DNA from: Rubellimicrobium roseum
Lineage (GTDB): Bacteria > Pseudomonadota > Alphaproteobacteria > Rhodobacterales > Rhodobacteraceae
DNA: 64,000 bases
Assembly: GCF_006152145.1 (NCBI RefSeq)
Contig: NZ_VDFV01000011.1
Span: 1-64,000, forward strand
Reading direction: 5' to 3'
Positions 46 to 13,709 of the stretch are shown here, piece after piece. The translations under genes and the position numbers were made by a program. Numbering within the stretch: position 1 is the first letter of the stretch; each line of letters starts with the position of its first letter. The notes under the pieces are model-generated. The model was not told where the DNA came from and ran no database searches. It saw only the letters and a list, made by a program, of their open reading frames with translations.

Positions 46-879
46 TCAACTCGAGTTGCGCAACAACGCCGAGGTGAAGTTGAACATTCTTGGCTTGACC
101 GCGCGCAGCCGGCCGGCCGCAACATGCGACGCCGCGAAGTGGCATGGCAGGAATCCGATGAACCGCCCAGAGAGGATCAGCATCAGTTGCGCTTCCATGT
201 GCACCACGGAGGCGCTCGCTCGTGGATGACCCACAAGGTAGAGGTCATCGAAGTGGCGATAACTTCGCACTGAGAAGCGGGCTTCGTCCACCTGGCGCTT
301 GGTGATTTCTGAGTCCAGCAGCCCGAAGAGAGGGTGACCTTCTCCGCAATAGAGGTGATGTGGCTCTCCGACGAAGTCTTGCTAGACGACGCCCGGCGCC
401 TTTCGGGATAGCGGGCCGATGACCACGTCGCGCTCGCCGTCGGCGACCTGACGCTCCAGCTCGGAACGGATGTCGAGGGACAGATCAACGAACACATCCG
501 TGTCCGGTGTCAGGAACTGGTTGATAGCCGCTTGAATGCCCAGCCGGTCGTCCGTCATCGTTCCGTCCGAGGTGCCTGACAGGCGCCAGCCCGAAAGGCC
601 TCCTCGGACTGCGGCGATGCGCCGATTGAAGTCCTCGAGGTCGCGAAACAGCTTCAGCGCCCCGTCATAAGTCGCTTGGCCGAGCTCGGTGAGGCGGAAC
701 TGCTGCTTGCCGCGAAAGCAGAGCTGGCCGCCCAAGCGCTTTTCCAGCTCGGCCTAGTGCGTGCTCAGCGTCGACTGGGACAGGTTGAGCGCCACTTGCG
801 CCTCAGCGAAACCGCCCGCGTCCGCCAACGCCATGAACACCCGCAGCAGACGGATATCGATGTTGTCTAGGCGGCGCAT
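46..879 (-). pseudogene. LysR-family transcriptional regulator, inactivated
   Basis: The reading frame from the ATG at 879 encodes a LysR-type helix-turn-helix (RRLDNIDIRLLRVF ... NLSQSTLSTH) and then an effector-binding domain. Two in-frame TAG codons interrupt it, at 756-754 (just after STH, where a leucine is usual) and at 384-382 (after RKAPGVV). Beyond each stop the same frame continues with sensible LysR sequence (EPHHLYCGEGHPLF, then DDLYLVGHPRASASVVHMEAQ). The frame ends at 46 after about 277 codons, short of the usual 300, and the expected C-terminal tail is missing. The gene is divergent from the transporter operon starting at 993, the usual place for its regulator. TAG ends a neighbouring gene (4403-4405), so read-through is unlikely. 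It is probably a true pseudogene, although two sequencing errors are possible. Confidence 0.8.
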
Positions 880-992: not shown

Positions 993-1985
993 ATGCGCAA
1001 GCCGATCACATTCGTCGCCTCAGCCTTCGCCCTTGTTGCCGGAGCGGGCGCAACTTCGGCCGCCGACCAGATCCGCATCCTCGCGCCGACTTGGCTCGGG
1101 TTCGCGCCCGTCCACATCGCGCAGGATCTTGGCTGCTTCGAGCAGAACGATCTCGAAGTCAGTATCAGCTTCGAGGACGACCTGACCAATGTCATGGCAG
1201 CGATGGCCCGGGGTGACATCGAAGTGCAGATGAGGTCGGTGGGGGAGTATCAGGGCCGGCCTCGCGACCCGAGCACGCCTGGCATTATCATCGGCACCAT
1301 CGACGAATCGGCCGGCGGCGACGGTGTGATCACAGATGAGACCATTCAGTCGGTGTCGGACCTTCAGGGCAAGACGATCGCGGCGGAGCCGAACATCCCT
1401 TCGCGCCTGCTGCTCCAGATGGAGTTGAAGGAGGCAGGCCTTTCCCTGGACGACCTGACAGTGGTGGACATCGCCACGGCTGACACGGCGGCCGTGTTCG
1501 CCGACGGGTCGATTGCGGCTATCGCCACTTACGAGCCTTTCATGTCGCAAGCCATCGAAGCCTCGGGCCGTCCGGGCGCAAGGGTGCTGGTTTCGTCTAA
1601 GGACTATCCTGGCCTCATCATCGACGCGATCATCGCCCGAAATGACGATCTCGCCGCGAATCCCGACAAGTACCGCCGCTTCCTGACCTGCATATACCAA
1701 GCTGTCGACTTCATCGACGCCAACCCGGACCAATTCGCCGAGATGGCCGCGCCCCACTTTGGCCTGACCCCCGAGGAGGTCACCGAGGTCGTCACCTCAA
1801 GCATCACCTACAACAACCTGGACGAGGCCAAGACCTACATGGGTACGTCAGGGGAACGGGGAACGATCCACGACATCTTCGACACTGTCCTGGACCTCAA
1901 CCTGGAGAATGGCGCAGCCGACAGCAAGCTGGTGGCGGAAGACCAGATCGATAACTCGGTCATCAACCAGGTCGAGGTTCAGTGA
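993..1985 (+). CDS. NitT/TauT-type ABC transporter substrate-binding protein (NMT1/THI5-like)
   Basis: A 330-aa secreted binding protein with an N-terminal signal peptide of about 23 residues ending in a TSA|AD-type site. The mature part has the pattern of taurine/sulfonate/nitrate and HMP-precursor binding proteins: APTWLGFAPVHIAQDLGCFEQ near the N terminus, then SVSDLQGKTIAAEPNIPS and a conserved YEPFMSQAIEAS segment. An AGGGAG ribosome site precedes the ATG. It is the first gene of a transporter-plus-enzyme operon, and the permease and ATPase follow directly. The ligand cannot be read from sequence. The family binds small amines, sulfonates and heterocycles, and the downstream creatininase and ureohydrolase suggest a nitrogenous compound, which is inference. 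Confidence 0.9.
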   Translation: MRKPITFVASAFALVAGAGATSAADQIRILAPTWLGFAPVHIAQDLGCFEQNDLEVSISFEDDLTNVMAAMARGDIEVQMRSVGEYQGRPRDPSTPGIIIGTIDESAGGDGVITDETIQSVSDLQGKTIAAEPNIPSRLLLQMELKEAGLSLDDLTVVDIATADTAAVFADGSIAAIATYEPFMSQAIEASGRPGARVLVSSKDYPGLIIDAIIARNDDLAANPDKYRRFLTCIYQAVDFIDANPDQFAEMAAPHFGLTPEEVTEVVTSSITYNNLDEAKTYMGTSGERGTIHDIFDTVLDLNLENGAADSKLVAEDQIDNSVINQVEVQ

Positions 1986-2011
1986 GCTTGTCGGCGACGC
2001 GAGGAGCGACG

Positions 2012-2872
2012 ATGAGCGGTGCGATGGACGAGCCGCTACCCGAACGTGGCAAGCGGCCTGCCCAGGGTCGGTCCAAGACCCTGCGGACAGCATTGGGCGG
2101 CCTGTTTGCGTTTCGGGGCCGATCCTCTCCCACCGTGGAGGTGGGTGTGAGCGTCCTAGCGGCCGCGATCGTTCTCGGACTGTGGGAGGCCGCCTCCCGT
2201 GCGGGATGGATTGCGCCGCAGTTTCTGCCTTCGCCCAGCGCCGTCCTAGGGGCGCTCTGGACCATGACAACCGAACAGAGCCTTGGCTACCATATCGCGG
2301 TCTCCACAGGGCGTGTCTGGGCCGCGTTCCTGCTCGCGGCGGCAATGGCGATTCCGATCGGGATCCTGATGAGCAGCTACCGGATCGTCGGAGCGGCGCT
2401 CGAGCCGATGATCGACTTCATCCGGTACCTGCCGGTTCCCGCGCTGGTGCCGCTGTCCATCATCTGGTTTGGTGTCGGGGAGACGACCAAGATCTTTCTC
2501 CTGTGGCTCGGCACCTTTTTCCAGCTCGTGCTGCTCGTGGCCGATGACATGCGTCGCGTGCCGCACGAATACGTGGAGGTCGCTCGGACGGTGGGTGCCA
2601 ACTCGCGGCAGCTCATGTGGGACGTGGCGCTGCGCTCGATGGGTCCGACGCTGCTCGACAACCTGCGCATCACGCTCGGATGGTGCTGGACCTACCTCAT
2701 CATTGCCGAGATCGTCGCGGCCAGCAGCGGCATCGGCTACGTCATCTGGCAGGCTCGTCGCTTCGTGAAGACGCCCGAGGTGATGGCCGGCGTGGTGGTG
2801 ATCGGCCTCATCGGCCTCGTCACGGACCAGCTCCTGCGGCTGCTGCACCGCCGTTTCTTCCGTTATTTGTGA
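2012..2872 (+). CDS. NitT/TauT-type ABC transporter permease
   Basis: A 286-aa inner-membrane permease of the SsuC/TauC type with about six hydrophobic segments. It carries the EAA-loop motif near [31 protein letters not shown], which contacts the ATPase. A GTG at 1982 overlapping the upstream stop is also open, but the ATG at 2012 is preceded by GAGGAG at good spacing and was chosen. The partner ATPase starts 7 bases downstream. Confidence 0.9.
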
Positions 2873-2879
2873 GGGTGCC

Positions 2880-3653
2880 GTGACAGCAGATTACCTGCGC
2901 TTCTACGGGGTCGCGAAGACGTTCGGCACGGTCCCGGTGGTGCGCCGCACCGACCTGTCCATCGCGCGCGACGCGCTCGTGGTGTTCCTCGGACCTTCCG
3001 GCTGCGGGAAGACAACCCTGATGCGGATGGTCGGGGGCCTCGATAGCCCGACCGAAGGGTGGATCGAGCTCGATGGCGGAAGGGTCGACCGACCCGACCG
3101 GCGACGGGGCATGGTCTTCCAGTCCTATTCGTCGTTCCCCTGGCTCACGGTGGCCCAGAACATCGCTTTCGGCATGCGCTACCGCGACGACCTCACGGCA
3201 GCCGAAAAGCAGGAACGCGTCCGCCACTACTTGGACCTGGTCGGCCTGACGGACTTCGCGGACAGCTATCCGAGCCGGATCTCGGGCGGGATGCGGCAGC
3301 GCGTGGCCATCGCCCGGACGCTGGCGGCCGGGTCCGAGGTGCTGCTCATGGACGAGCCCTTCGGCGCGCTGGACGCTCTGACGCGCGAGCGGCTCCAGGT
3401 CCAGCTTCGCTCGATCCAGAAGCGCGAAGCCAAGACGGTCGTCTTCGTCACCCACGACGTGGAGGAGGCGGTGTTTCTGGCGGACCGGATCATCCTGTTC
3501 TCCGCGCGCCCCGCCACCATCGTGGCCGACATCGACGTGACGGCCGAGCTAGGGGCCGAGCGGCCGCTCGACATTCGTGAGACGCGCCCCTTCTTCGACC
3601 TGCGGAATCACGTGCTGCACCTCATACGCCACGAGACCAGCGAGGCGGCATGA
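2880..3653 (+). CDS. NitT/TauT-type ABC transporter ATP-binding protein
   Basis: A 257-aa ABC ATPase. The Walker A motif GPSGCGKTT is at about residues 38-46, followed by the Q-loop [13 protein letters not shown], the signature [12 protein letters not shown], Walker [12 protein letters not shown] and the switch histidine in VTHDVEEA. The FGALD and THDVEEA forms are typical of the SsuB/TauB/NrtD group. The start is GTG at 2880. It powers import with the preceding binding protein and permease. Its last four bases overlap the start of the next gene, a dehydrogenase, so transport and metabolism are co-translated. Confidence 0.93.
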
Positions 3654-4405
3654 CAGCGGGACTCGAGGGAAGGGTCGCGGTCATCACCGGCGCGAGCCGC
3701 GGCATCGGCCTGGGCATCGCCCGTCAGTTCCAGGCGGCGGGCGCGCGGCTGCATCTTGTCGCCGATGACGCGGCCATCGTGGCGCGCGCGGAGGAGATGG
3801 GTTGCACCGGGGCCGTCGCGGATATCGCAGACGCGGCGCAGGTGCGCGATGCGCTGGCCGGGCTCGACCGGATCGACGTGCTCGTCAACAACGCGGGGCT
3901 GGAGTTGATGACCCCGGTCACGGATGCGAGCGAGGAGGTGCTGAACGCGGTCCAGCGCATCGTCTCGATCAATGTCGTAGGCACAGCGATGGTGACGCGG
4001 CGCGCGATTCCTTCGATGCGCGCGGGCGGAGCCATCGTGAACACGGCCTCGATCTGGGGGCGTGTCGCCGAGCCCGCCTTCGACGCGTACGTCGCCTCCA
4101 AGCACGCCATCATCGGCCTGACCAAGACCTGGGCGCGCGAGCTGGGCCCACTCGGCATCAGGGTGAATGCGATTTGCCCCGGCTGGGTCCGGACCGAGGC
4201 CTCCATGCGCTCGCTGCGCCGGATGGCGGGCCTAACGGGGCGGGCCGAGGACGACCTCCTGGCCGACATCGTCGCGGGACAGGCTCTGCCCGGGCTGATG
4301 GAGCCCGAGGATGTGGCTGGTGCCTACCTGTTCCTCGCTTCCGACTCGGCCCGGAACATCACGGGCCAGTCGCTCGGCGTCGATCGGGGAGAGGTGCCAT
4401 GGTAG
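3650..4405 (+). CDS. Short-chain dehydrogenase/reductase (first of a pair)
   Basis: A 251-aa classical SDR. The cofactor motif TGASRGIG is at residues 13-20, NNAG at 80-83, and the catalytic residues are Ser134, Tyr147 and Lys151 (YVASK). It should oxidise a hydroxyl or reduce a carbonyl with NAD(P)(H). The dinucleotide preference cannot be judged safely. The start overlaps the ATPase stop (ATGA), and the gene ends in TAG inside the start region of a second SDR. Two different SDRs in one operon suggest sequential redox steps or two isomeric substrates. Confidence 0.9.
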
Positions 4406-5106
4406 CAATGCTGGCTGGGCGGACCGCCCTGGTGACCGGGGCGGCCAGTGGCATTGGTCGTGCGAGCGCTGAGGCGCTGCGCGCCGAGGGAGCACAGGTC
4501 GTAGGATTGGACGTGCGGGCAGCGGAGGGGCCTATTCCCGTGCTGGCCTGCGATCTGTCCCGCGAGGAGCAGGTCGTGGCTGCGGTCGCCGAGGCTGCGC
4601 GTCGGCTGGGCGGGCTGGACATCATCGTGAACAGTGCGGGGATCCTCGAGGAGAAGCCGCTCACCGTCGTCACGGCGGAGCACGTCGACCGGATGTTCGC
4701 CGTGAACGTCAGGGGCGCGATCCTCGTCGCGCGCGAGGCGCTGCCCCACCTGCGCGAGGGCGGACGGATCATCAACGTGGCCTCGGAACTGGCGTATCTC
4801 GGACGTGCCGAGGCCTCGGTCTACGTCGCCACCAAGGCGGCGCTCATCGGCTTGACCCGATCCTGGGCCCGCGAACTCGCGCCACGCATCTTGGTCAACG
4901 CTGTCGCTCCCGGACCCACGGACACTCCCCTTCTCGGGTTCGAGCAGCTGAACGAGGCGCAGCGTCGGGCCGAGACGGCCCATCCGCTCGGACGGATCGG
5001 ACGGCCCGAGGAGGTCGCCGCCGCCGTCGTCTTCCTTGCCGGGCAAGGCGCGACCTTCTTCACCGGCCAGTGCCTGGGCGCCAACGGCGGCGCCGCGATG
5101 ATCTGA
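4399..5106 (+). CDS. Short-chain dehydrogenase/reductase (second of a pair)
   Basis: A 235-aa classical SDR with TGAASGIG at 13-20, an NSAG motif at 78-81 in place of NNAG, and catalytic Ser129, Tyr142 and Lys146 (YVATK). The start was taken as the ATG at 4399, which overlaps the preceding SDR by 7 bases and has GGGGAGAGG just upstream. A second ATG three codons later is possible. The two SDRs are clearly divergent, so this is not a recent duplication. The substrate is unknown. Its place before creatininase and ureohydrolase genes ties it to the same pathway. Confidence 0.9.
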   Translation: MVAMLAGRTALVTGAASGIGRASAEALRAEGAQVVGLDVRAAEGPIPVLACDLSREEQVVAAVAEAARRLGGLDIIVNSAGILEEKPLTVVTAEHVDRMFAVNVRGAILVAREALPHLREGGRIINVASELAYLGRAEASVYVATKAALIGLTRSWARELAPRILVNAVAPGPTDTPLLGFEQLNEAQRRAETAHPLGRIGRPEEVAAAVVFLAGQGATFFTGQCLGANGGAAMI

Positions 5107-5114
5107 GGAGAGAC

Positions 5115-5897
5115 ATGGACAGTGTTTTCTGGGCCGAGTTGCCCTGGCCCGACGTGGAACAGCGCGTGGCCGCCGGTGCCCCCGTCTTCCTGCCAGTTGG
5201 CGCGACGGAACAGCACGGACGGCACATGGCACTGAACGTGGACGCAGTGATACCCACCGCGATCTGCGAGCGGGTGGCCCGATCCGTAGGGGGATTGGTT
5301 GCGCCCACGCTGGCCTATGGCACCCGGTCCCAGCCACGCACGGGGGGCGGCCCCGGTTTTCCGGGCACACTCAACCTGACGGCCGGCACCTTCGCGATGA
5401 TCCTGCGCGACGTCATCTGCGACCTTCATCGCCAGAACGTCCGGCGCATCGTTATCGTGAACGGCCATTACGAGAATATCGGCCCTTCCATCGAAGGGAT
5501 CGAGCTCGCGCTCGACGCAATCGGCCGCCACAGGTCCGAGGACCTGATAATCCTGCGCTTCGACCACTGGGAGCTGGTCCGGCCAGAGACCCTCGACCGC
5601 ATCTTCCCGGACGGCTACCCGGGAATCGAGCTGGAGCATGCGAGCGTCCTGGAGACATCGCTGATGATGGCATTGCGGCCCGAGCTTGTGGACCTGTCCC
5701 GGGCGAGACACGACGGGCCGGCGCAGTTCAGGCCTTACGACCGATACCCGCGCCCACCTGTCGAGGTGCCGCCCTCCGGTGTCCTCTCGTTGACCGAGGG
5801 GTCATCGGCCGAGAAGGGCGGCTGGCTGCTGGCTGACGTGACGGTCCGGATGACCGAATACGTGAACGAAGAATTCGAGCGGGGCGACAAGAGATGA
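5115..5897 (+). CDS. Creatininase-family metal-dependent amidohydrolase
   Basis: A 260-aa member of the creatininase fold, which hydrolyses cyclic or linear amides with a two-metal centre. All five classic ligands are visible: Glu32 and His34 in ATEQHGRH, Asp43 in NVDAVIP, and His118 and Glu120 in NGHYEN. Their spacing equals that of true creatininase (E34, H36, D45, H120, E122) shifted by two. GAGGAGAG precedes the ATG at 5115. The family also includes formylamine hydrolases and the mycofactocin protease MftE. No mycofactocin genes are nearby, so MftE is unlikely. It overlaps the ureohydrolase start by four bases, which suggests consecutive reactions. Confidence 0.88.
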   Translation: MDSVFWAELPWPDVEQRVAAGAPVFLPVGATEQHGRHMALNVDAVIPTAICERVARSVGGLVAPTLAYGTRSQPRTGGGPGFPGTLNLTAGTFAMILRDVICDLHRQNVRRIVIVNGHYENIGPSIEGIELALDAIGRHRSEDLIILRFDHWELVRPETLDRIFPDGYPGIELEHASVLETSLMMALRPELVDLSRARHDGPAQFRPYDRYPRPPVEVPPSGVLSLTEGSSAEKGGWLLADVTVRMTEYVNEEFERGDKR

Positions 5898-6868
5898 ACG
5901 CTGCCTTCTATCAACCGGTCGACGCGGCCGTGGTGCCGCGCTTTGCGGGCCTGTCCACCTTCATGCGCCTGCCGGCCGTGGCCTCTCCGGTCGGGCTCGA
6001 CATCGCGTTGGCGGGGATTCCCTGGGACGGTGGCACCACGAACCGCGCCGGCGCCCGCCACGGCCCGCGAGAGATGCGCAACCAGTCGAGCCTGATGCGG
6101 CGGGTCCATCATGTCTCCAAGGTGGCCCCATTCAGCTTGGCCAACATCGCCGACATGGGCGATGTCTCGGTGAATCCAATCGACCTCCAGGATGGCCTGG
6201 CCCGGATCGAGGCGGGGATGGCCGAGATCGTGGCGGCAGGTGTCCTTCCCCTCTGCGCCGGGGGCGATCACCTGACCACCCTGCCGGTGCTGCGGGCCGT
6301 CGCGAGGGCCCGGCCCGTGGGGCTGATCCACTTCGACGCCCACTCCGATACCAACGACACCTACTTCGGCCAGAACCCCTATACTCATGGCACGCCGTTC
6401 CGCCGCGCGATCGAGGAGGGCCTGCTCGACCCCAGGCGCGTCATTCAGATCGGCATCCGTGGCTCCATCTACGACCCCGATGAGCATGGCTGGGCGCGCG
6501 AGCAGGGCATTCGCATCATCTACATGGAGGAGTTCGTCCGCCGAGGGTCCGCCGACGTCATGGCCGAGGCTCGAGACGTCGCCGGCGGTCAGCCCACCTA
6601 CGTCACGTTCGATATCGACAGCCTGGACCCTTCCGTGGCCCCAGGCACCGGCACCCCGGAGATCGGCGGCTTCACCACGCGCGAGGCGCAGGAGATGCTT
6701 CGGCTCCTTGATGGCGTGGACATCGTCGGTGCGGACGTCGTGGAGGTCTCGCCCCCCTTCGACGTGGGCGGGATGACGGCGCTCGCTGGAGCCACGATGA
6801 TGTTCGAGCTGCTGTGCGTCATGGCGGCGAACGTGGGACGCCGGAGAGCGACGGAAGGTGGCGCATGA
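5894..6868 (+). CDS. Ureohydrolase (agmatinase/arginase-fold, guanidino-compound hydrolase)
   Basis: A 324-aa ureohydrolase. The binuclear metal ligands are all present: His126 (GGDH), Asp148, His150 and Asp152 (HFDAHSDTND), and Asp240 and Asp242 (FDIDSLDPSVAPGTGTPE). Such enzymes split a guanidino group into urea plus an amine. The subfamily, among agmatinase, guanidinobutyrase, guanidinopropionase, guanidinoacetate and guanidine hydrolases, cannot be fixed from motifs. The N-terminal extension (about 35 residues before IALAGIPWDGG) resembles the guanidino-acid hydrolases. It is the last gene of the operon; 181 bases separate it from the next gene. Confidence 0.9.
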   Translation: MNAAFYQPVDAAVVPRFAGLSTFMRLPAVASPVGLDIALAGIPWDGGTTNRAGARHGPREMRNQSSLMRRVHHVSKVAPFSLANIADMGDVSVNPIDLQDGLARIEAGMAEIVAAGVLPLCAGGDHLTTLPVLRAVARARPVGLIHFDAHSDTNDTYFGQNPYTHGTPFRRAIEEGLLDPRRVIQIGIRGSIYDPDEHGWAREQGIRIIYMEEFVRRGSADVMAEARDVAGGQPTYVTFDIDSLDPSVAPGTGTPEIGGFTTREAQEMLRLLDGVDIVGADVVEVSPPFDVGGMTALAGATMMFELLCVMAANVGRRRATEGGA

Positions 6869-7049: not shown

Positions 7050-7985
7050 ATGCCAATACGAGAGGGCTACGCACCTTTTGGCGACCACCGGACGTGGTAC
7101 CGCGTGACCGGCGATCTCGCCTCGGGCAAGCCGCCGCTGGTCGTCCTGCATGGCGGGCCGGGTTGCACCCACGACTACGTCCTGAGCTTCGCGGACCTCG
7201 CGGACACGGGCCGCGCCGTCATCCACTACGACCAGATCGGCAATGGCCGATCCACCCACATGCGGGGTGCTGGGCCCGAGGTCTGGACGGTGGACCTGTT
7301 CCTGGCCGAGCTCGACAACCTGCTGGCGCACCTCGGCATCCAGGACCGCTACGCCGTGCTGGGCCAGTCCTGGGGCGGAATGCTTGGCGCCGAGCACGCG
7401 GTGCTGCGGCCCGAGGGGCTCCAGTCCCTGGTGATCGCCGACTCCCCCGCCAGCATGATCACCTGGGTGGCCGAGGCCAACCGCCTGCGCGAGCAGCTGC
7501 CGCCAGAGGTGCAGGCCACGCTGCTGCAGCACGAGCGGGCGGGCACCACCGACGATCCGGAGTACACGAAGGCTGTCGAGGTCTTCAACGGGCGCCATGT
7601 CTGCCGGGTTGTGCCCAACCCGCCCGAGGTGCAGCGCACCTTCGACGCCATCGCCGAGGATCCGACCGTCTACCACACGATGAACGGCCCCTCGGAGTTC
7701 CACGTCATCGGCACCCTCAAGACCTGGACCATCGAGGACCGCCTCGACCGGATCAACGTGCCGACGCTCCTGATCTCGGGCCGCCATGACGAGGCGACCG
7801 AGGCCTGCGTGCAGCCTTACGCGGACCGCATCCCCGACGTGCGGTGGACGATCTTCGAGGAGTCGAGCCACCTCCCGCACGTGGAGGAAAAGGACGCCTG
7901 CCTGGCCACCGTCGCCGCTTTCCTGGACGAGGCGGACGGCGTCGGCCCAACGACCACCAAAGCAACAGAGGGGATCCACCAATGA
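7050..7985 (+). CDS. Proline iminopeptidase-like alpha/beta hydrolase (S33 family)
   Basis: A 311-aa alpha/beta hydrolase. The oxyanion motif [10 protein letters not shown] begins at residue 34, the nucleophile elbow GQSWGG places the catalytic serine at 107, an Asp follows in [14 protein letters not shown], and the His lies in [10 protein letters not shown] near the C terminus. This pattern fits the proline iminopeptidase / tricorn-interacting-factor F1 group, which removes N-terminal residues (often proline) from short peptides. There is no signal peptide, so it is cytoplasmic. Its stop overlaps the start of a peptide-binding protein gene (ATGA). Together they look like an import-then-hydrolyse unit for peptides or peptide-like amides. 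Amidase or esterase activity is an alternative. Confidence 0.87.
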
Positions 7986-9658
7986 CCACGCGCATCGGAC
8001 GCGCCGCGCTCATCGGCGCCGCGCTGCTCTCCACCACATCGATCGCGGCCTCCGCGCAGACGCGCGAGGAGCTGATGGAGCAGCACCGGGGCGGCACGCT
8101 CCGCCTCGTGGCCAGCGCGGCGGGCGGCACCATCGATCCCCAGATCAACTACACCGCGCAGTACTGGCAGGTGATGCAGCTGGTCTATGACGGGCTCCTG
8201 ACCTTCAAGAAGGCGGCGGGCGAGGAAGGGGGCGTCGTGGTGCCCGACCTCGCGACCGAGATCCCCGAGCCCACCAACGACGGCAAGACCTACGTCTTCC
8301 AGCTCCGCGACGGCATCAAGTTCTCGGACGGGACCGACGTGGGCGTGGACGACGTGGTCGCCTCCTTCCAGCGCATCTTCAAGATCTCGGGCCCGACCTC
8401 GGGGACGTTCTACAACGGGATCGTGGGCGCGGACGCCTGCCTCGCCTCCCCCGCCGACTGCACGCTCGAGGGCGGCGTCGTGGGCGACGAGGCGGCGCGG
8501 ACCGTGACGATCAACCTCGTGGCGCCCGACCCGGAGTTCCTCCTCAAGATCTCGGTCCCCCACGCTGTGATCCTGCCGGCCGAGACGCCGGCCACCGACG
8601 CGGGCGTGAACCCGATCCCCGGCACCGGCCCCTACTATTTCGAGAGCTACAATCCGAACGAAAGCCTCGTGATGGCGCGGAATCCGAACTTCCAGGAATG
8701 GAGCCAGGACGCCCAGCCCGACGGCTACGTCGACCGGATCGAGTACGGCTTTGGCCTGACCGACGAGGCGCAGGTGACGGCGGTGCAGAACGGCCAGGCG
8801 GACTGGATGTTCGACCAGCCCCCCGCCGACCGCCTGAACGAGATCGGGACCCAGTACGCCGAGCAGGTGCACGTGAACCCGCTCACGGCCTTCTGGTATG
8901 CGCCGATGAACACGAATCTCCCCCCCTTCGACGACGTGCGGGTGCGGCAGGCGGTGAACTACGCCATCGACCGCGCCGCGCTCGTGCAGGTCTTCGGCGG
9001 GCCGGTGCTCGCGCAGCCCGTCTGCCAGATCCTGCCGCCCGGCTTCCCGGGGCACGAGGACAGCTGCATCTACACGCAGAGCCCCGGCACGACCTGGACC
9101 GCGCCCGACATGGACAAGGCCCGCGCCCTCGTGGAGGAGTCCGGGACCGCCGGTCAGGACGTGACCATCGTGGTCGAGGACACCACCGTCTCGCGCGGGG
9201 TGGGGACCTACCTCCAATCGGTGCTGACGGACCTGGGCTACAACGCCAGCGTCAACGCCATCTCCTCGAACATCCAGTTCACCTACATTCAGAACACCAA
9301 CAACAACGTCCAGATCAGCGTCAGCCAATGGTACCAGGACTACCCGGCGGCCTCGAACTTCCTGAACGTGCTCCTGTCCTGCGCCTCGTTCCACCCGGGG
9401 TCGGACGCCTCGATCAACATCGCGGGCTACTGCAATGAGGAACTCGACGCCCGGATGCAGGCCGCGATGGAGCTGGCCGTGACGGACCCGGAGGCCGCCA
9501 ACGCGGAATGGGCCAAGATCGACCAGGCCTTCATGGAGGAGGCCCCGATGGCGCCGCTGTTCACGCCCAAGGCCATCGACTTCCTGTCCACGCGGGTCGG
9601 CAACTACGTGTTCTCGAACCAGTACAAGTGGGTGATGTCCGAGGCCTGGGTCCAGTGA
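7982..9658 (+). CDS. Peptide/opine ABC transporter substrate-binding protein (SBP family 5)
   Basis: A 558-aa periplasmic binding protein with a Sec signal peptide of about 26 residues (ending AASAQ). It has the DppA/OppA pattern: [18 protein letters not shown], then [44 protein letters not shown] and [16 protein letters not shown]. The ATG at 7982 overlaps the peptidase stop and is the natural start. Di- or oligopeptides are the most common family ligands, but nickel, opines and glycosides also occur. Two permeases and two ATPases follow. Confidence 0.92.
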
Positions 9659-9692
9659 CCGAGGACCTGCACGAGGTCGGTCGGCCGAGACG

Positions 9693-10739
9693 ATGAGCCT
9701 GCCCTCCGAACCCGTCCTGGCTCCGGCGGCCGAGCCCGCCGCAGCCGACCCCGCCCGCCCGGCGGAGGGGCGCGGCCCCTGGCGGACCGCCTGGCGCCGC
9801 CTGCGCCGCAACCGTTCGGCCATGATCTCGCTGGCCGTCCTTCTGGCCGTGGTGGCACTCACACTGCTCGCCCCGGCTTACGCAGGTTGGCTCGGCATCG
9901 ACCCCTTCCGGTCGAACCTCGCCGGAACCTGGATGATCGACGGCCAGAGCGTGCCGGTCATGGAGCCGTCCACCACCGGCCTCGGCCTCGGCGTGACGCC
10001 CATCGGACCCACCTGGGACCTGGGCGGATACTTCCTGGGCGCAGACAACCAGGGCCGGGACGTGGCGGCGCGGCTCCTCTACGGGGGTCGTAACTCCCTG
10101 GTGATCGCGGGGGCGGCCACGGTGCTGTGCCTCATGCTGGCCACCCTCTTAGGCCTTGTGGCGGGCTACATGGGCGGGGTCGTGGACATGATCCTGTCGC
10201 GCATCCTCGACGTGCTCTGGGCCTTCCCGGTCTACCTCCTCGCCATTTCGCTCTCGATCGTCCTCCTCACCAGCGCCTTCACCATCGGCCCCGTCACCAT
10301 CACGGCGGGCAGCCTTCTCCTCCCCATCGGGATCATCGGCGTGATCTACGTCCCCTATGTGGCCCGCCCCATCCGGGCGCAGGTCCTTACCCTGCGGCAG
10401 AGCGAGTTCGTCCTGGCCGCTATCGGCCTGGGCCTCCCCACGGGGCGCATCCTGCGGAAGGACGTCCTGCCGAACCTCCTGCCGACGCTGATCGTCTTCG
10501 TGCCGATCCTCCTCGCGCTCGCCATCACGACCGAGTCGGCACTGTCCTACCTCTCCATCGGCGTCCAGCCGCCCGACGCGAGCTGGGGGACGATCATCCA
10601 GGACGGCCAGACGCTTCTCTACTCGCGCCCCTGGGTGGCGCTGGCCCCAGGGCTCGCCATCGTCGTCACGGTACTCGCGCTCAACGTGCTGGGTGACGCC
10701 GTCCGGGACGCGCTCGACGCTCGGGGGCATGGCCGCTGA
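9693..10739 (+). CDS. Peptide ABC transporter permease (DppC-like)
   Basis: A 348-aa permease. The proline- and alanine-rich N terminus is followed by the WRRLRRNRSAMISLAVL segment typical of DppC/OppC, a periplasmic loop, and five further membrane segments. The EAA-like motif is around LAAIGLGLPTGRILRKDVLPNLLP. Here the DppC-type gene comes before the DppB-type gene, the reverse of the usual dppABCDF order. Its last base is shared with the start of the next gene. Confidence 0.92.
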   Translation: MSLPSEPVLAPAAEPAAADPARPAEGRGPWRTAWRRLRRNRSAMISLAVLLAVVALTLLAPAYAGWLGIDPFRSNLAGTWMIDGQSVPVMEPSTTGLGLGVTPIGPTWDLGGYFLGADNQGRDVAARLLYGGRNSLVIAGAATVLCLMLATLLGLVAGYMGGVVDMILSRILDVLWAFPVYLLAISLSIVLLTSAFTIGPVTITAGSLLLPIGIIGVIYVPYVARPIRAQVLTLRQSEFVLAAIGLGLPTGRILRKDVLPNLLPTLIVFVPILLALAITTESALSYLSIGVQPPDASWGTIIQDGQTLLYSRPWVALAPGLAIVVTVLALNVLGDAVRDALDARGHGR

Positions 10740-11707
10740 TGCTTGCCACCATCGTCGCGCGCCTCGGGCAGATGGTCTTCGTGATGTTCGGCATCAGCGT
10801 GCTGGTCTTCCTGATCTTCTTCGCCACGCCCGGATCGGACCCCGCCGCCCGCATTGCCGGCCGCAACGCCTCGCCCGAGACGGTGGCCCAGATTCGCGAG
10901 GACTTCGGTTTCGACCGCCCCCTGCCAGTCCAGTATGCGGTGATGATGAAGCGTCTCTTTGTGACGCAGGACCTCACCTCCTTCGTCAACCGCGGCCAGA
11001 AGGTCATCCCCGAGGTGCTGGACGCGATCCCGGCGACCCTGTCGCTGGTGTCCGGCGCGGCGGTGCTCTGGGTGCTGGGCTCGCTCACCGTGGGGGTCGC
11101 GGCGGCGGCGCTGCGGGACACGGCGGTGGACCGGGGGCTGATGATCCTGTCGCTCATCGGCATCTCGGCACCGGTCTTCTGGCTGGGCGAGGTGATGAAC
11201 CTCCTGAGCCAGAGCCGCTACCACGACACCTGGCTCTTCTCTTGGGTGCCGGGCCTGGGCTACGTGCCGCTCAGCGACAGCGTCTCGGGCTGGTTCAAGG
11301 CGCTGGTGATCCCCTGGATCACGCTCGCCGTCCTCTACATCGGCATCTACGGCCGGGTCCTGCGCGCCAACCTGATCGAGGCCTATTCCGAGGACTATAT
11401 CCGCACCGCCCGTGCCAAGGGGCTGAGCCCCACGCGCATCATGCTGCGCCACGCGCTGCGGACCTCTCTCCTGCCCTTTGTGACCATGTTTGGGCTGGAC
11501 TTCGGGGCGCTGGTCGGCGGCGCGGCGCTGCTCACCGAGGTGGTTTTCGGCATCAACGGCATCGGACGGCTGACCTTCCACGCGCTCCAGAACCTCGACC
11601 TGCCCGTGATCCTCGCCACAGTGATCTACGCCTCGTTCTTCGTCGTGGCCGCCAACGCGCTGGTGGACGTGCTCTATGCGGTGATTGACCCACGGGTGCG
11701 CGCATGA
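10739..11707 (+). CDS. Peptide ABC transporter permease (DppB-like)
   Basis: A 322-aa permease of the DppB/OppB type. It has a short N terminus running straight into the first membrane helix (RLGQMVFVMFGISVLVFLIFF), the family motif IREDFGFDRPLPVQY, and an ATPase-contacting loop TARAKGLSPTRIMLRHALRTSLLP. The TGATG junction with the upstream permease and an ATGA overlap with the downstream ATPase indicate coupled translation. Confidence 0.92.
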   Translation: MLATIVARLGQMVFVMFGISVLVFLIFFATPGSDPAARIAGRNASPETVAQIREDFGFDRPLPVQYAVMMKRLFVTQDLTSFVNRGQKVIPEVLDAIPATLSLVSGAAVLWVLGSLTVGVAAAALRDTAVDRGLMILSLIGISAPVFWLGEVMNLLSQSRYHDTWLFSWVPGLGYVPLSDSVSGWFKALVIPWITLAVLYIGIYGRVLRANLIEAYSEDYIRTARAKGLSPTRIMLRHALRTSLLPFVTMFGLDFGALVGGAALLTEVVFGINGIGRLTFHALQNLDLPVILATVIYASFFVVAANALVDVLYAVIDPRVRA

Positions 11708-12702
11708 GCCCGCTCCTCGACGTCCGCAACCTCCGCGTGGCCTTCGCGACCGATGGCGGGCCGGTCACGGCGGTGCACGACGTGTCCTTCACCGTCCAGC
11801 CCGGCGAGGTCCTCGCCATCGTGGGCGAGAGCGGGTCGGGCAAGTCGGTCTCGCTGCTCTCGGTGCTGGGCCTCGTGGACCGGCGGCGGACGGTGGTCGA
11901 GGGGCAGGCGACCTTCCGGGGCGAGCCGATCCTGAACCTTTCCGAACGCGTGCTGCGACGCATTCGAGGCCGCGAGATCGCGCTTATCTCGCAGGACCCG
12001 ATGACCGCGCTAACCCCCGTGCACCGGATCGGCGACCAGATCGCCGAGCAGATCCGGGCGCATGAGCGGGTGAGTCGCCAGGCCGCCCGGGACCGCGCCG
12101 TCAGCCTGCTGCGCGACGTGAACATCCCGATGCCGGAACGCGCCGTGGACCGCTACCCGCACGAGCTGTCGGGCGGGATGCGACAGCGGGCGGTGATCGC
12201 CATGGCGCTGTCCTGCAACCCCGCCCTCCTCGTGGCGGACGAGCCGACCACGGCGCTCGACACCACCGTGCAGGCGCAGGTGCTGGACATGCTGCGGCGG
12301 CTCAGCGCGCAGCACGACTCTTCGGTGGTGCTCATCACACATGACATGGGTGTGGTGGCCGAGATGGCGACGCGGGTGGCCGTCATGTATGCGGGCCGGA
12401 TCGTAGAGACAGGGACCGTGGCCGAGCTGTTCGACGACCCCTGGCACCCGTACACCTGGGGCCTCCTCGACTCGATCCCGCCGCTGACCGGCGCACGGCC
12501 TCGCAGGCTCCCCTCCATTGCCGGGATGCCGCCCCCGCCGGGCCGGACCGAGCCCGGATGTCCCTTTGCCCCACGCTGCCGCGCCGCCATGCCTGTCTGC
12601 TATCTTCCCCCGCCGGAGCAGGTCGCAGGCGGCCACCGGGCGCTCTGCGTTCTTGACGCGCCGGCCCGCGCTGCCCTGCGTCCGCCCAGGGTCGCCGCAT
12701 GA
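11704..12702 (+). CDS. Peptide ABC transporter ATP-binding protein (DppD-like)
   Basis: A 332-aa ATPase with Walker A GESGSGKS at 41-48, signature [17 protein letters not shown], Walker [13 protein letters not shown] and switch His in [11 protein letters not shown]. The C-terminal oligopeptide-transporter domain is present, with the family signature [16 protein letters not shown]. It pairs with the following DppF-like ATPase and overlaps it by four bases. Confidence 0.93.
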
Positions 12703-13709
12703 CCGCTACACCCCTGATCGAGGCGCGTGCGCTCACGCGCGAGTTCGTCCTGCGGCGAAGCTGGCTTCCCGGCAGTGGTCAGGTGCTGCGGGCCGTGGAC
12801 CGGGTCGACCTCGCCGTGCACAAGGGCGAGACGCTCGGCCTCGTTGGCGAGAGCGGGTCGGGCAAGTCCACCCTGGGCCGTTGCCTCACGCGGCTGATCG
12901 AGACGACGGACGGCTCGGTCGTGTTCGACGGGCAGGACGTGACCCGGCTCAGGGCGCGCGGCCTCCGGCCCTTCCGGCGGTCGGTCCAGATGATCTTCCA
13001 AGACCCGTCCTCCTCCCTGAACCCCCGCCGCCGGGTCGGCGACATCCTGTCGGAGCCGCTCGCCGTCCACGGCATCCGCCCAGCGCGCGAGGTTCCGGGA
13101 CGGCTGCGCGAACTCATGGACCTCGTGGGCCTGCCCGCTGCCGCGCTCGACCGCTTCCCGCACGAGTTCTCGGGCGGGCAGCGCCAGCGCATCGGCATCG
13201 CCCGGGCACTCGCTATGGAGCCGCGGCTTATTGTGGCGGACGAGCCGGTGTCAGCGCTCGATGTCTCGGTGCAGGCGCAGGTCGTCAACCTCTTCGCCGA
13301 CCTGCGCGAGAGGCTGTCGCTCACCTACCTATTCATCGCCCACGACCTGGGCGTGGTTAGGCAGGTCTCGACCCGCGTGGCCATCATGTACCTGGGCTCG
13401 GTCATGGAGACGGGTGAGACCGACACGGTCTTCGACTCGCCTGCGCATCCCTACACCGAGGCGCTGCTCTCCGCGATCCCGGTCCCCGTCGCCGATCCCG
13501 CCGCGCGTCGCCGCCGCATCCTCCTGAAGGGCGAGATCCCGAACGCCGCCAACCCGCCCAAGGGCTGCAAATTCGTGACCCGCTGCCCCTACGCGCAGGA
13601 CGTCTGCCGGGCTCAGCGTCCTGAATTGCGCCCCCTGACTGACGGGCGGCTTGTCGCCTGCCATTTCCCCAGGGCGGCGCTATTCGCTAGCGGGGCTGTA
13701 CTGGCCTGA
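12699..13709 (+). CDS. Peptide ABC transporter ATP-binding protein (DppF-like)
   Basis: A 336-aa ATPase with Walker [10 protein letters not shown] from about residue 50, signature [15 protein letters not shown], Walker [20 protein letters not shown] (the second-subunit form) and a C-terminal cysteine-containing motif [15 protein letters not shown]. It completes a binding protein/two-permease/two-ATPase importer and is the last gene of its operon. A hairpin follows about 100 bases downstream. Confidence 0.93.

Follow-up and report, generated by a model that had tools for sequence, protein, structure and literature searches.

A seven-gene operon of Rubellimicrobium roseum with a possible role in the breakdown of a cyclic guanidino amide other than creatinine

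Here, we report on an operon in a 64,000-nucleotide stretch of DNA from Rubellimicrobium roseum (assembly GCF_006152145.1, contig NZ_VDFV01000011.1, positions 1 to 64,000), which as a whole is called the window below. Seven open genes lie on its plus strand at 993-6868 and code for a three-gene importer, two short-chain dehydrogenases (SDR1 and SDR2), a creatininase-family amidohydrolase (CRN) and a ureohydrolase (URE). We give about an even chance to the reading, drawn from sequence comparison, that this is a catabolic operon for a small cyclic guanidino amide other than creatinine. Loci used for comparison are numbered with the prefix L.

The operon and its gene products

The genes are as follows.
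70 to 879, minus strand: LysR-type regulator, divergent (tblastn of the L003 LysR, 70% over 270 aa, one frame, two stops)
993 to 1985, plus strand: NitT/TauT-type substrate-binding protein (SBP) (Pfam NMT1, 1.3e-19)
1982 to 2872, plus strand: ABC importer permease (Pfam BPD_transp_1, 2.9e-27)
2880 to 3653, plus strand: ABC importer ATPase (Pfam ABC_tran, 2.8e-30)
3650 to 4405, plus strand: SDR1, short-chain dehydrogenase (Pfam adh_short_C2, 1.2e-51)
4399 to 5106, plus strand: SDR2, short-chain dehydrogenase (Pfam adh_short_C2, 5.3e-58)
5115 to 5897, plus strand: CRN, creatininase-family amidohydrolase (Pfam Creatininase, PF02633, 2.5e-53, 181.4 bits, cutoff 31.3)
5894 to 6868, plus strand: URE, ureohydrolase of the 3-guanidinopropionase (GpuA) type (Pfam Arginase, 4e-94)

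An earlier note on this DNA, made from the sequence alone, had read the genes as one operon of a NitT/TauT importer, two SDRs, a creatininase-family enzyme and a ureohydrolase, and all seven are confirmed. The junctions measure -4 bases from SBP to permease, +7 from permease to ATPase, -4 from ATPase to SDR1, -7 from SDR1 to SDR2, +8 from SDR2 to CRN and -4 from CRN to URE, the last being an ATGA overlap; such spacing, from -7 to +8 bases, makes co-transcription and translational coupling of the seven genes very probable. CRN most likely starts at the ATG at 5115 and not at the GTG at 5070. A pattern scan for promoters and terminators gave nothing beyond chance. The frame of the divergent regulator is interrupted by two in-frame stops and the seven structural genes are open; the regulator is likely a pseudogene, i.e., a recent loss of regulation, or else an assembly error. 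In Mesorhizobium and Ancylobacter loci, the module is likewise adjoined by a divergent LysR of this kind, and a LysR is found in L001-L003 and L005-L009.

The NMT1-type SBP, the BPD permease and the ATPase in one operon make up a NitT/TauT-type importer, and none of the three genes reached an NCBIfam cutoff among the matches listed (for the ATPase, best 25 of 187). Both the SBP of the window and the alternative SBP of L116 match solved nitrate, sulfonate and taurine binders weakly. SDR1 and SDR2 are classical SDRs carrying TGxxxGxG and YxxxK, motifs of established meaning in this family; in SDRs the use of NAD goes with an Asp where the second strand ends, and the Asp found there in both proteins suggests NAD as the cofactor. 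The nearest solved structures of SDR1 are 3-hydroxybutyrate dehydrogenase and quinuclidinone reductase, while the solved relatives of SDR2 are generic. The earlier note had counted five creatininase and six ureohydrolase metal ligands, and these are indeed intact: alignment to the Pseudomonas putida creatininase (1j2t, whose numbering is used throughout) places E34, H36, D45, H120 and E122 in CRN, and the six ligands of URE read HDHDDD.

Recurrence of the gene set in other genomes

Neighbourhoods and CRN residues were tabulated for 116 longer loci (L001-L058, L112-L143 and L222-L247; the short loci L059-L111 and L144-L221 were left out), the first 58 of which were located by peptide patterns of the window protein and are thus biased towards it. 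A CRN was accepted at more than 120 bits with at least half of the query covered, giving 97 places in 96 loci; the 20 of 116 loci without one are L055-L057 and 17 loci fetched for URE. Two SDRs were called where two matches, each scoring 110 bits or more (147 being the lowest in practice), lay on the same strand within 7.5 kb. Please note that the counts are of loci, near relatives included, and not of independent events, and that absent neighbours mean little in L010, L016, L028, L035, L038, L049 and L224, where contigs end near CRN.

The earlier note had named a search for this neighbourhood elsewhere as a test on which its reading could fail, and we found the set conserved and reshuffled in other genomes. 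Mesorhizobium loci L001-L004 have SDR1-SDR2-CRN-URE, with importer and LysR also present in L001-L003 (L004 is a short contig), and Ancylobacter loci L006-L009 have LysR, SDR1, SDR2, CRN, URE and a second ureohydrolase (URE2) with no adjoining importer. The order is SBP-permease-ATPase-CRN-SDR1-SDR2-URE in L116-L118 and CRN-URE2-URE-SBP-permease-ATPase-SDR1-SDR2 in L119; in L112-L114 a diverged NitT/TauT-type importer is followed by SDR1-SDR2-CRN-URE, a layout which L115 repeats minus URE. In L041, from Sinanaerobacter (Bacillota), URE-CRN is accompanied by SDRs and by a membrane protein with the appearance of an amino-acid permease. We consider the retention of the set despite reordering strong evidence of a shared function and of a functional link among the importer, the SDRs, CRN and URE. 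As a separate observation, Paramesorhizobium deserti (L005, 8457-11631) has a seemingly eroded copy consisting of LysR, a piece of SBP, a CRN without a start, and URE.

The two SDRs also appear to belong to the module. CRN-linked SDRs form an SDR1 clade of 47 rows (SH-aLRT 100) and an SDR2 clade of 50 rows (82), each holding the respective window protein, and none of the 36 SDRs of the window's own genome falls inside either; the outsiders in this tree, which left out L059-L111, come from that one genome only, and the exclusivity of the clades holds with respect to this genome.

A second type of cluster changes the view of the gene set. Hydrogenophaga, other Burkholderiales and L233-L236 (same phylum, outside the class) combine SDRs of both clades (in the named loci) and CRN with a fatty-acid-desaturase-like protein. 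Such desaturase-type loci make up 36 of the 97 CRN places, with an EamA permease in 35/36, an isochorismatase-fold hydrolase in 33/36, an MBL protein in 19/36 and URE within 7.5 kb of CRN in none of the 36. Many of L010-L058 and L233-L236 show the series NMT1-type SBP, desaturase-like protein, SDR1, SDR2, EamA permease, CRN, usually the isochorismatase-fold hydrolase and often an MBL lactonase-like protein. The domains were verified in L012. With NCBIfam models, its isochorismatase-fold hydrolase reaches 250 of the 370 bits required for biuret amidohydrolase and its MBL protein 137 of the 375 bits required for a lactonase; with both under the cutoff, neither label was assigned.

Two SDRs accompany CRN at 51 of the 97 places, 31 of them with a desaturase (URE in 0/31), and URE is present in 17 of the other 20. 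The five-gene set proposed in the earlier note does recur elsewhere, but the conserved core, as judged from these neighbourhoods, is SDR1-SDR2-CRN, usually with an importer component; this core is more widespread than the set of the window, URE being one of two alternative endings. The isochorismatase-fold ending is perhaps used because the opened product carries a ureido and not a guanidino group. Going further, we put forward tentatively, with the odds leaning against it, that SDR1-SDR2-creatininase is an old undescribed ring-opening module acting on a hydroxylated cyclic amide, and that its two endings can stand in for each other: guanidino rings would go with a guanidino acid ureohydrolase, and ureido rings with an isochorismatase-fold hydrolase that is accompanied by an oxygenase of its own and, in many cases, by a lactonase-like protein.

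Module membership changes 7 times on the URE tree, at least 6 of the changes being forced by well-supported branches, indicating that ureohydrolases have, by their phylogeny, joined or left the module repeatedly. One may ask whether URE and the rest are mere neighbours, URE serving 3-guanidinopropionate and SDR-SDR-CRN a non-guanidino compound; URE relatives exist without CRN, and 34 of the 51 two-SDR CRNs have no URE nearby, which also weighs against the catabolic reading given above. However, 17 of the 20 SDR-linked loci without a desaturase have URE close to CRN and on its strand, across several orders and with several URE lineages, and the two genes share the ATGA overlap in the window; we regard the mere-neighbour explanation as rather improbable. 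The conserved, reordered co-occurrence and the repeated gain or loss of URE support the functional link, and consecutive action of CRN and URE, as the earlier note had it, is the simplest reading.

L133-L135 (same class) provide a natural deletion. At the site where Mesorhizobium L001 and L002 have the whole module, they show the same flanking genes and keep URE, but they lack LysR, the importer, the SDRs and all of CRN except a 3' remnant; homology to L001 restarts within the last codons of CRN, right before URE. Their UREs fall among module-bearing UREs in the tree. By this position and the remnant, the ancestors of L133-L135 had the module, lost the rest and kept URE. The persistence of URE alone at the same site fits a URE that is useful without CRN and partly independent of it, which favours the mere-neighbour explanation and counts against a catabolic operon for a cyclic guanidino amide; it fits equally a URE that performs the last step and remains useful for guanidino acids from other sources. 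The deletion and the intact Mesorhizobium-type site offer ready-made strain pairs for growth comparison.

CRNs of E<=1e-40 occur in 23/390 genomes of the order, 11/385 of the class and 12/398 of the phylum samples, which overlap and each include the window's genome; the window type (>=75%) is patchy, in 5/390 genomes of the order sample.

Residue 174, the substrate and candidate routes

CRN is 45% identical to 1j2t, and its nearest solved relatives are creatininases. It scores 307.6 bits against the NCBIfam creatininase equivalog TIGR04448 (cutoff 235), which the CRNs of L012 (353.5), L116 (318.3) and L119 (330.4 bits) also pass, in a scan that took SDR-linked CRNs only. Tyr121, Trp154 and His178 are kept and Trp174, which we take to be the substrate-pocket residue closing over the substrate, is replaced by Ile; the deposited creatininase chain 3a6e has Phe aligned at this position. 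Residue 174 is split by neighbour type. It is Trp in 21/21 CRNs with a creatinase nearby (a label anchored on a gene of L120 with 851 bits to the creatine amidinohydrolase 7yto). The 51 two-SDR CRNs have Phe (25), Ile (16), Tyr (7), Met (1), Thr (1) and Trp (1, L119), the 7 where just one SDR match passes the threshold Tyr (3), Phe (2), Thr (1) and Trp (1, L041), and the 18 with neither a creatinase nor such a match Trp (8), Ile (5), Leu (3), Phe (1) and Tyr (1). The split is striking, yet residue 174 may just follow clade, related loci not being independent. It provides a simple re-annotation rule for creatininases and a direct test, and suggests that many database creatininases carrying one equivalog label do something else.

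With Trp174 lost, creatinine is an unlikely substrate and the operon, as far as its residues tell, probably does not serve creatinine breakdown. CRN has the family, the metal ligands, the 45% identity and the equivalog score in common with the known creatininase-creatinase pathway, which takes creatinine by way of creatine to sarcosine plus urea; the window differs from it in residue 174, in the two SDRs and the arginase-fold ureohydrolase, in lacking a creatinase nearby and in the separate clade of its CRN. The CRN tree places the 1j2t creatininases in a 19-row clade (100/99) without SDR-linked members, and the window CRN in a separate clade of 15 rows (100/99); L082-L111 and short duplicates were left out of this tree, L005, L028 and L049 are ungrouped, and the SDR label was assigned by hand from neighbourhood maps. 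The expectation of a route different from the known creatinine one is borne out, creatinase being found within 7.5 kb of CRN in 0/51 two-SDR loci and having no good match in the window's genome (best 46.7 bits, interrupted by stops, and 34.7 bits). Among the full-text literature matches listed, we found no paper describing a cluster in which a creatininase is joined by SDRs or a ureohydrolase, most subscription journals being outside the coverage.

URE matches 3-guanidinopropionase of Pseudomonas aeruginosa (GpuA, 3nip) with 489.8 bits, the next solved chain being guanidinobutyrase (3nio, 323.6 bits). It is 67% identical to GpuA and shares its metal ligands and Tyr157, a residue with a role in specificity. 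This likeness points to a predicted URE substrate resembling 3-guanidinopropionate and not guanidinoacetate or creatine, and such an acid would perhaps come from a six-membered ring, fitting the reshaped pocket at 174. The GpuA-like genes of L124 and L125 (83 and 86% identical to GpuA) differ in lying near a LysR, in stretches where neither CRN nor SDR was labelled. The earlier reading is partly supported: creatinine is unlikely, guanidinoacetate and creatine are disfavoured, and a cyclic guanidino substrate, hydroxylated or not, is a prediction.

A creatinine route could still be drawn in which the arginase-fold enzyme replaces creatinase, CRN giving creatine and URE splitting it to urea and sarcosine with the SDRs as accessories. 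The equivalog score and the identity to 1j2t speak for it; loss of a Trp174 that creatinase-linked CRNs keep in 21/21 cases, the absence of SDR-linked members from the 1j2t clade and the two dedicated SDR clades, which it leaves unexplained, speak against it, as do the GpuA-like URE and the finding that the related human guanidino acid hydrolase did not split creatine or guanidinoacetate (PMC9772407). We hold this version to be decidedly improbable.

In a breakdown route for a cyclic guanidino amide other than creatinine, the importer would take up the compound, and a hydroxyl of the ring or of its immediate surroundings would be oxidised by SDR1 and SDR2, or epimerised through oxidation and renewed reduction. 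CRN would then open the ring by hydrolysis of its amide, giving a free guanidino acid, and URE would cleave this acid, which probably resembles 3-guanidinopropionate, to urea plus an amino acid. The urea could feed a urease, the alpha subunit of which is encoded elsewhere in the genome. Such a route points to a nutrient and a pathway of nitrogen release that have both gone unrecognised, the pathway being spread over several bacterial groups. If the module with two endings exists as well, the creatininase of clinical assays would be a specialised relative within a wider group, marked by Trp174; the placement of clinical-type creatininases inside this group is weakly supported on the CRN tree (85/32).

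The two SDRs may be explained in other ways. IolN (3-dehydro-scyllo-inosose hydrolase) is a creatininase-family member that acts after dehydrogenation in inositol breakdown, and two SDRs ahead of a creatininase-family enzyme fit this logic: on a guanidino- or amino-cyclitol, the SDRs would oxidise ring hydroxyls, CRN would cleave a C-C bond of the cyclic diketone and URE would remove the guanidino side group. CRN and IolN share a superfamily, and CRN matches the IolN model NF041098 weakly, at 78.9 bits, far under the cutoff of 245; membership is thereby not indicated, the nearest solved relatives are creatininases, and the enzyme that URE resembles works on a short linear guanidino acid. We judge the cyclitol route unlikely. 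An oxidised creatinine such as creatol (5-hydroxycreatinine) is a further candidate, with an SDR producing the 5-oxo form, CRN opening it and URE freeing urea, while clusters of the desaturase type would either introduce the hydroxyl on their own or deal with the analogous hydantoin; the 250-bit match of the L012 hydrolase to the biuret amidohydrolase model agrees with this. One SDR would suffice, however, and ring opening would yield an acid of the size of creatine, which is shorter than the GpuA substrate, so that we see little likelihood in it.

Several further points weigh against the proposed catabolism of a cyclic guanidino amide. URE and desaturase are both absent from L115, L050 and L224, the last of these on a contig of 3.8 kb. 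The CRNs linked to SDRs do not form a single clade, their label needing 4 changes on the CRN tree, at least 2 of them forced, and 5 of 102 CRN-linked SDRs lie outside both SDR clades (L041, L046-L048, L051). Trp174 is kept in L119 and in L041 (one SDR over threshold), and L046, L047, L048 and L051 have Ile174 with one weak SDR neighbour only. The metal ligand His120 is Asn in L116-L118, where the module is otherwise complete, and by this change the CRN there may be altered or inactive. Deriving the substrate from the importer was rejected, the SBP matches being too weak, and so was deriving it from the generic solved relatives of the SDRs, whose activity is not predictable by sequence.

Second ureohydrolases, downstream genes and other CRN neighbourhoods

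URE2, about 35% identical to URE, adjoins it in L006-L009, L119 and L127, a pairing that recalls the heteromeric ureohydrolase metformin hydrolase. Unlike in that enzyme, both neighbouring copies keep all metal ligands, and the window URE and the L006 URE2 each score higher against other ureohydrolases than against the subunits of metformin hydrolase. L126 also has a URE and URE2 pair, with ABC importer genes and a LysR and with no CRN or SDR labelled.

Beginning 181 bases past URE, 7050-13709 of the window holds a proline-iminopeptidase (PIP)-family hydrolase followed by a dipeptide-type ABC importer. We rejected them as pathway members because of this gap and because no PIP match appears in the neighbourhood maps of relatives.

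Lastly, CRN lies near matches to TRZ/ATZ-type amidohydrolases in L119, L123, L225, L227, L232 and L237, with a PuuE-like deacetylase and a ureohydrolase also near CRN in L119 and L123; these neighbourhoods possibly represent another ring-breakdown route.

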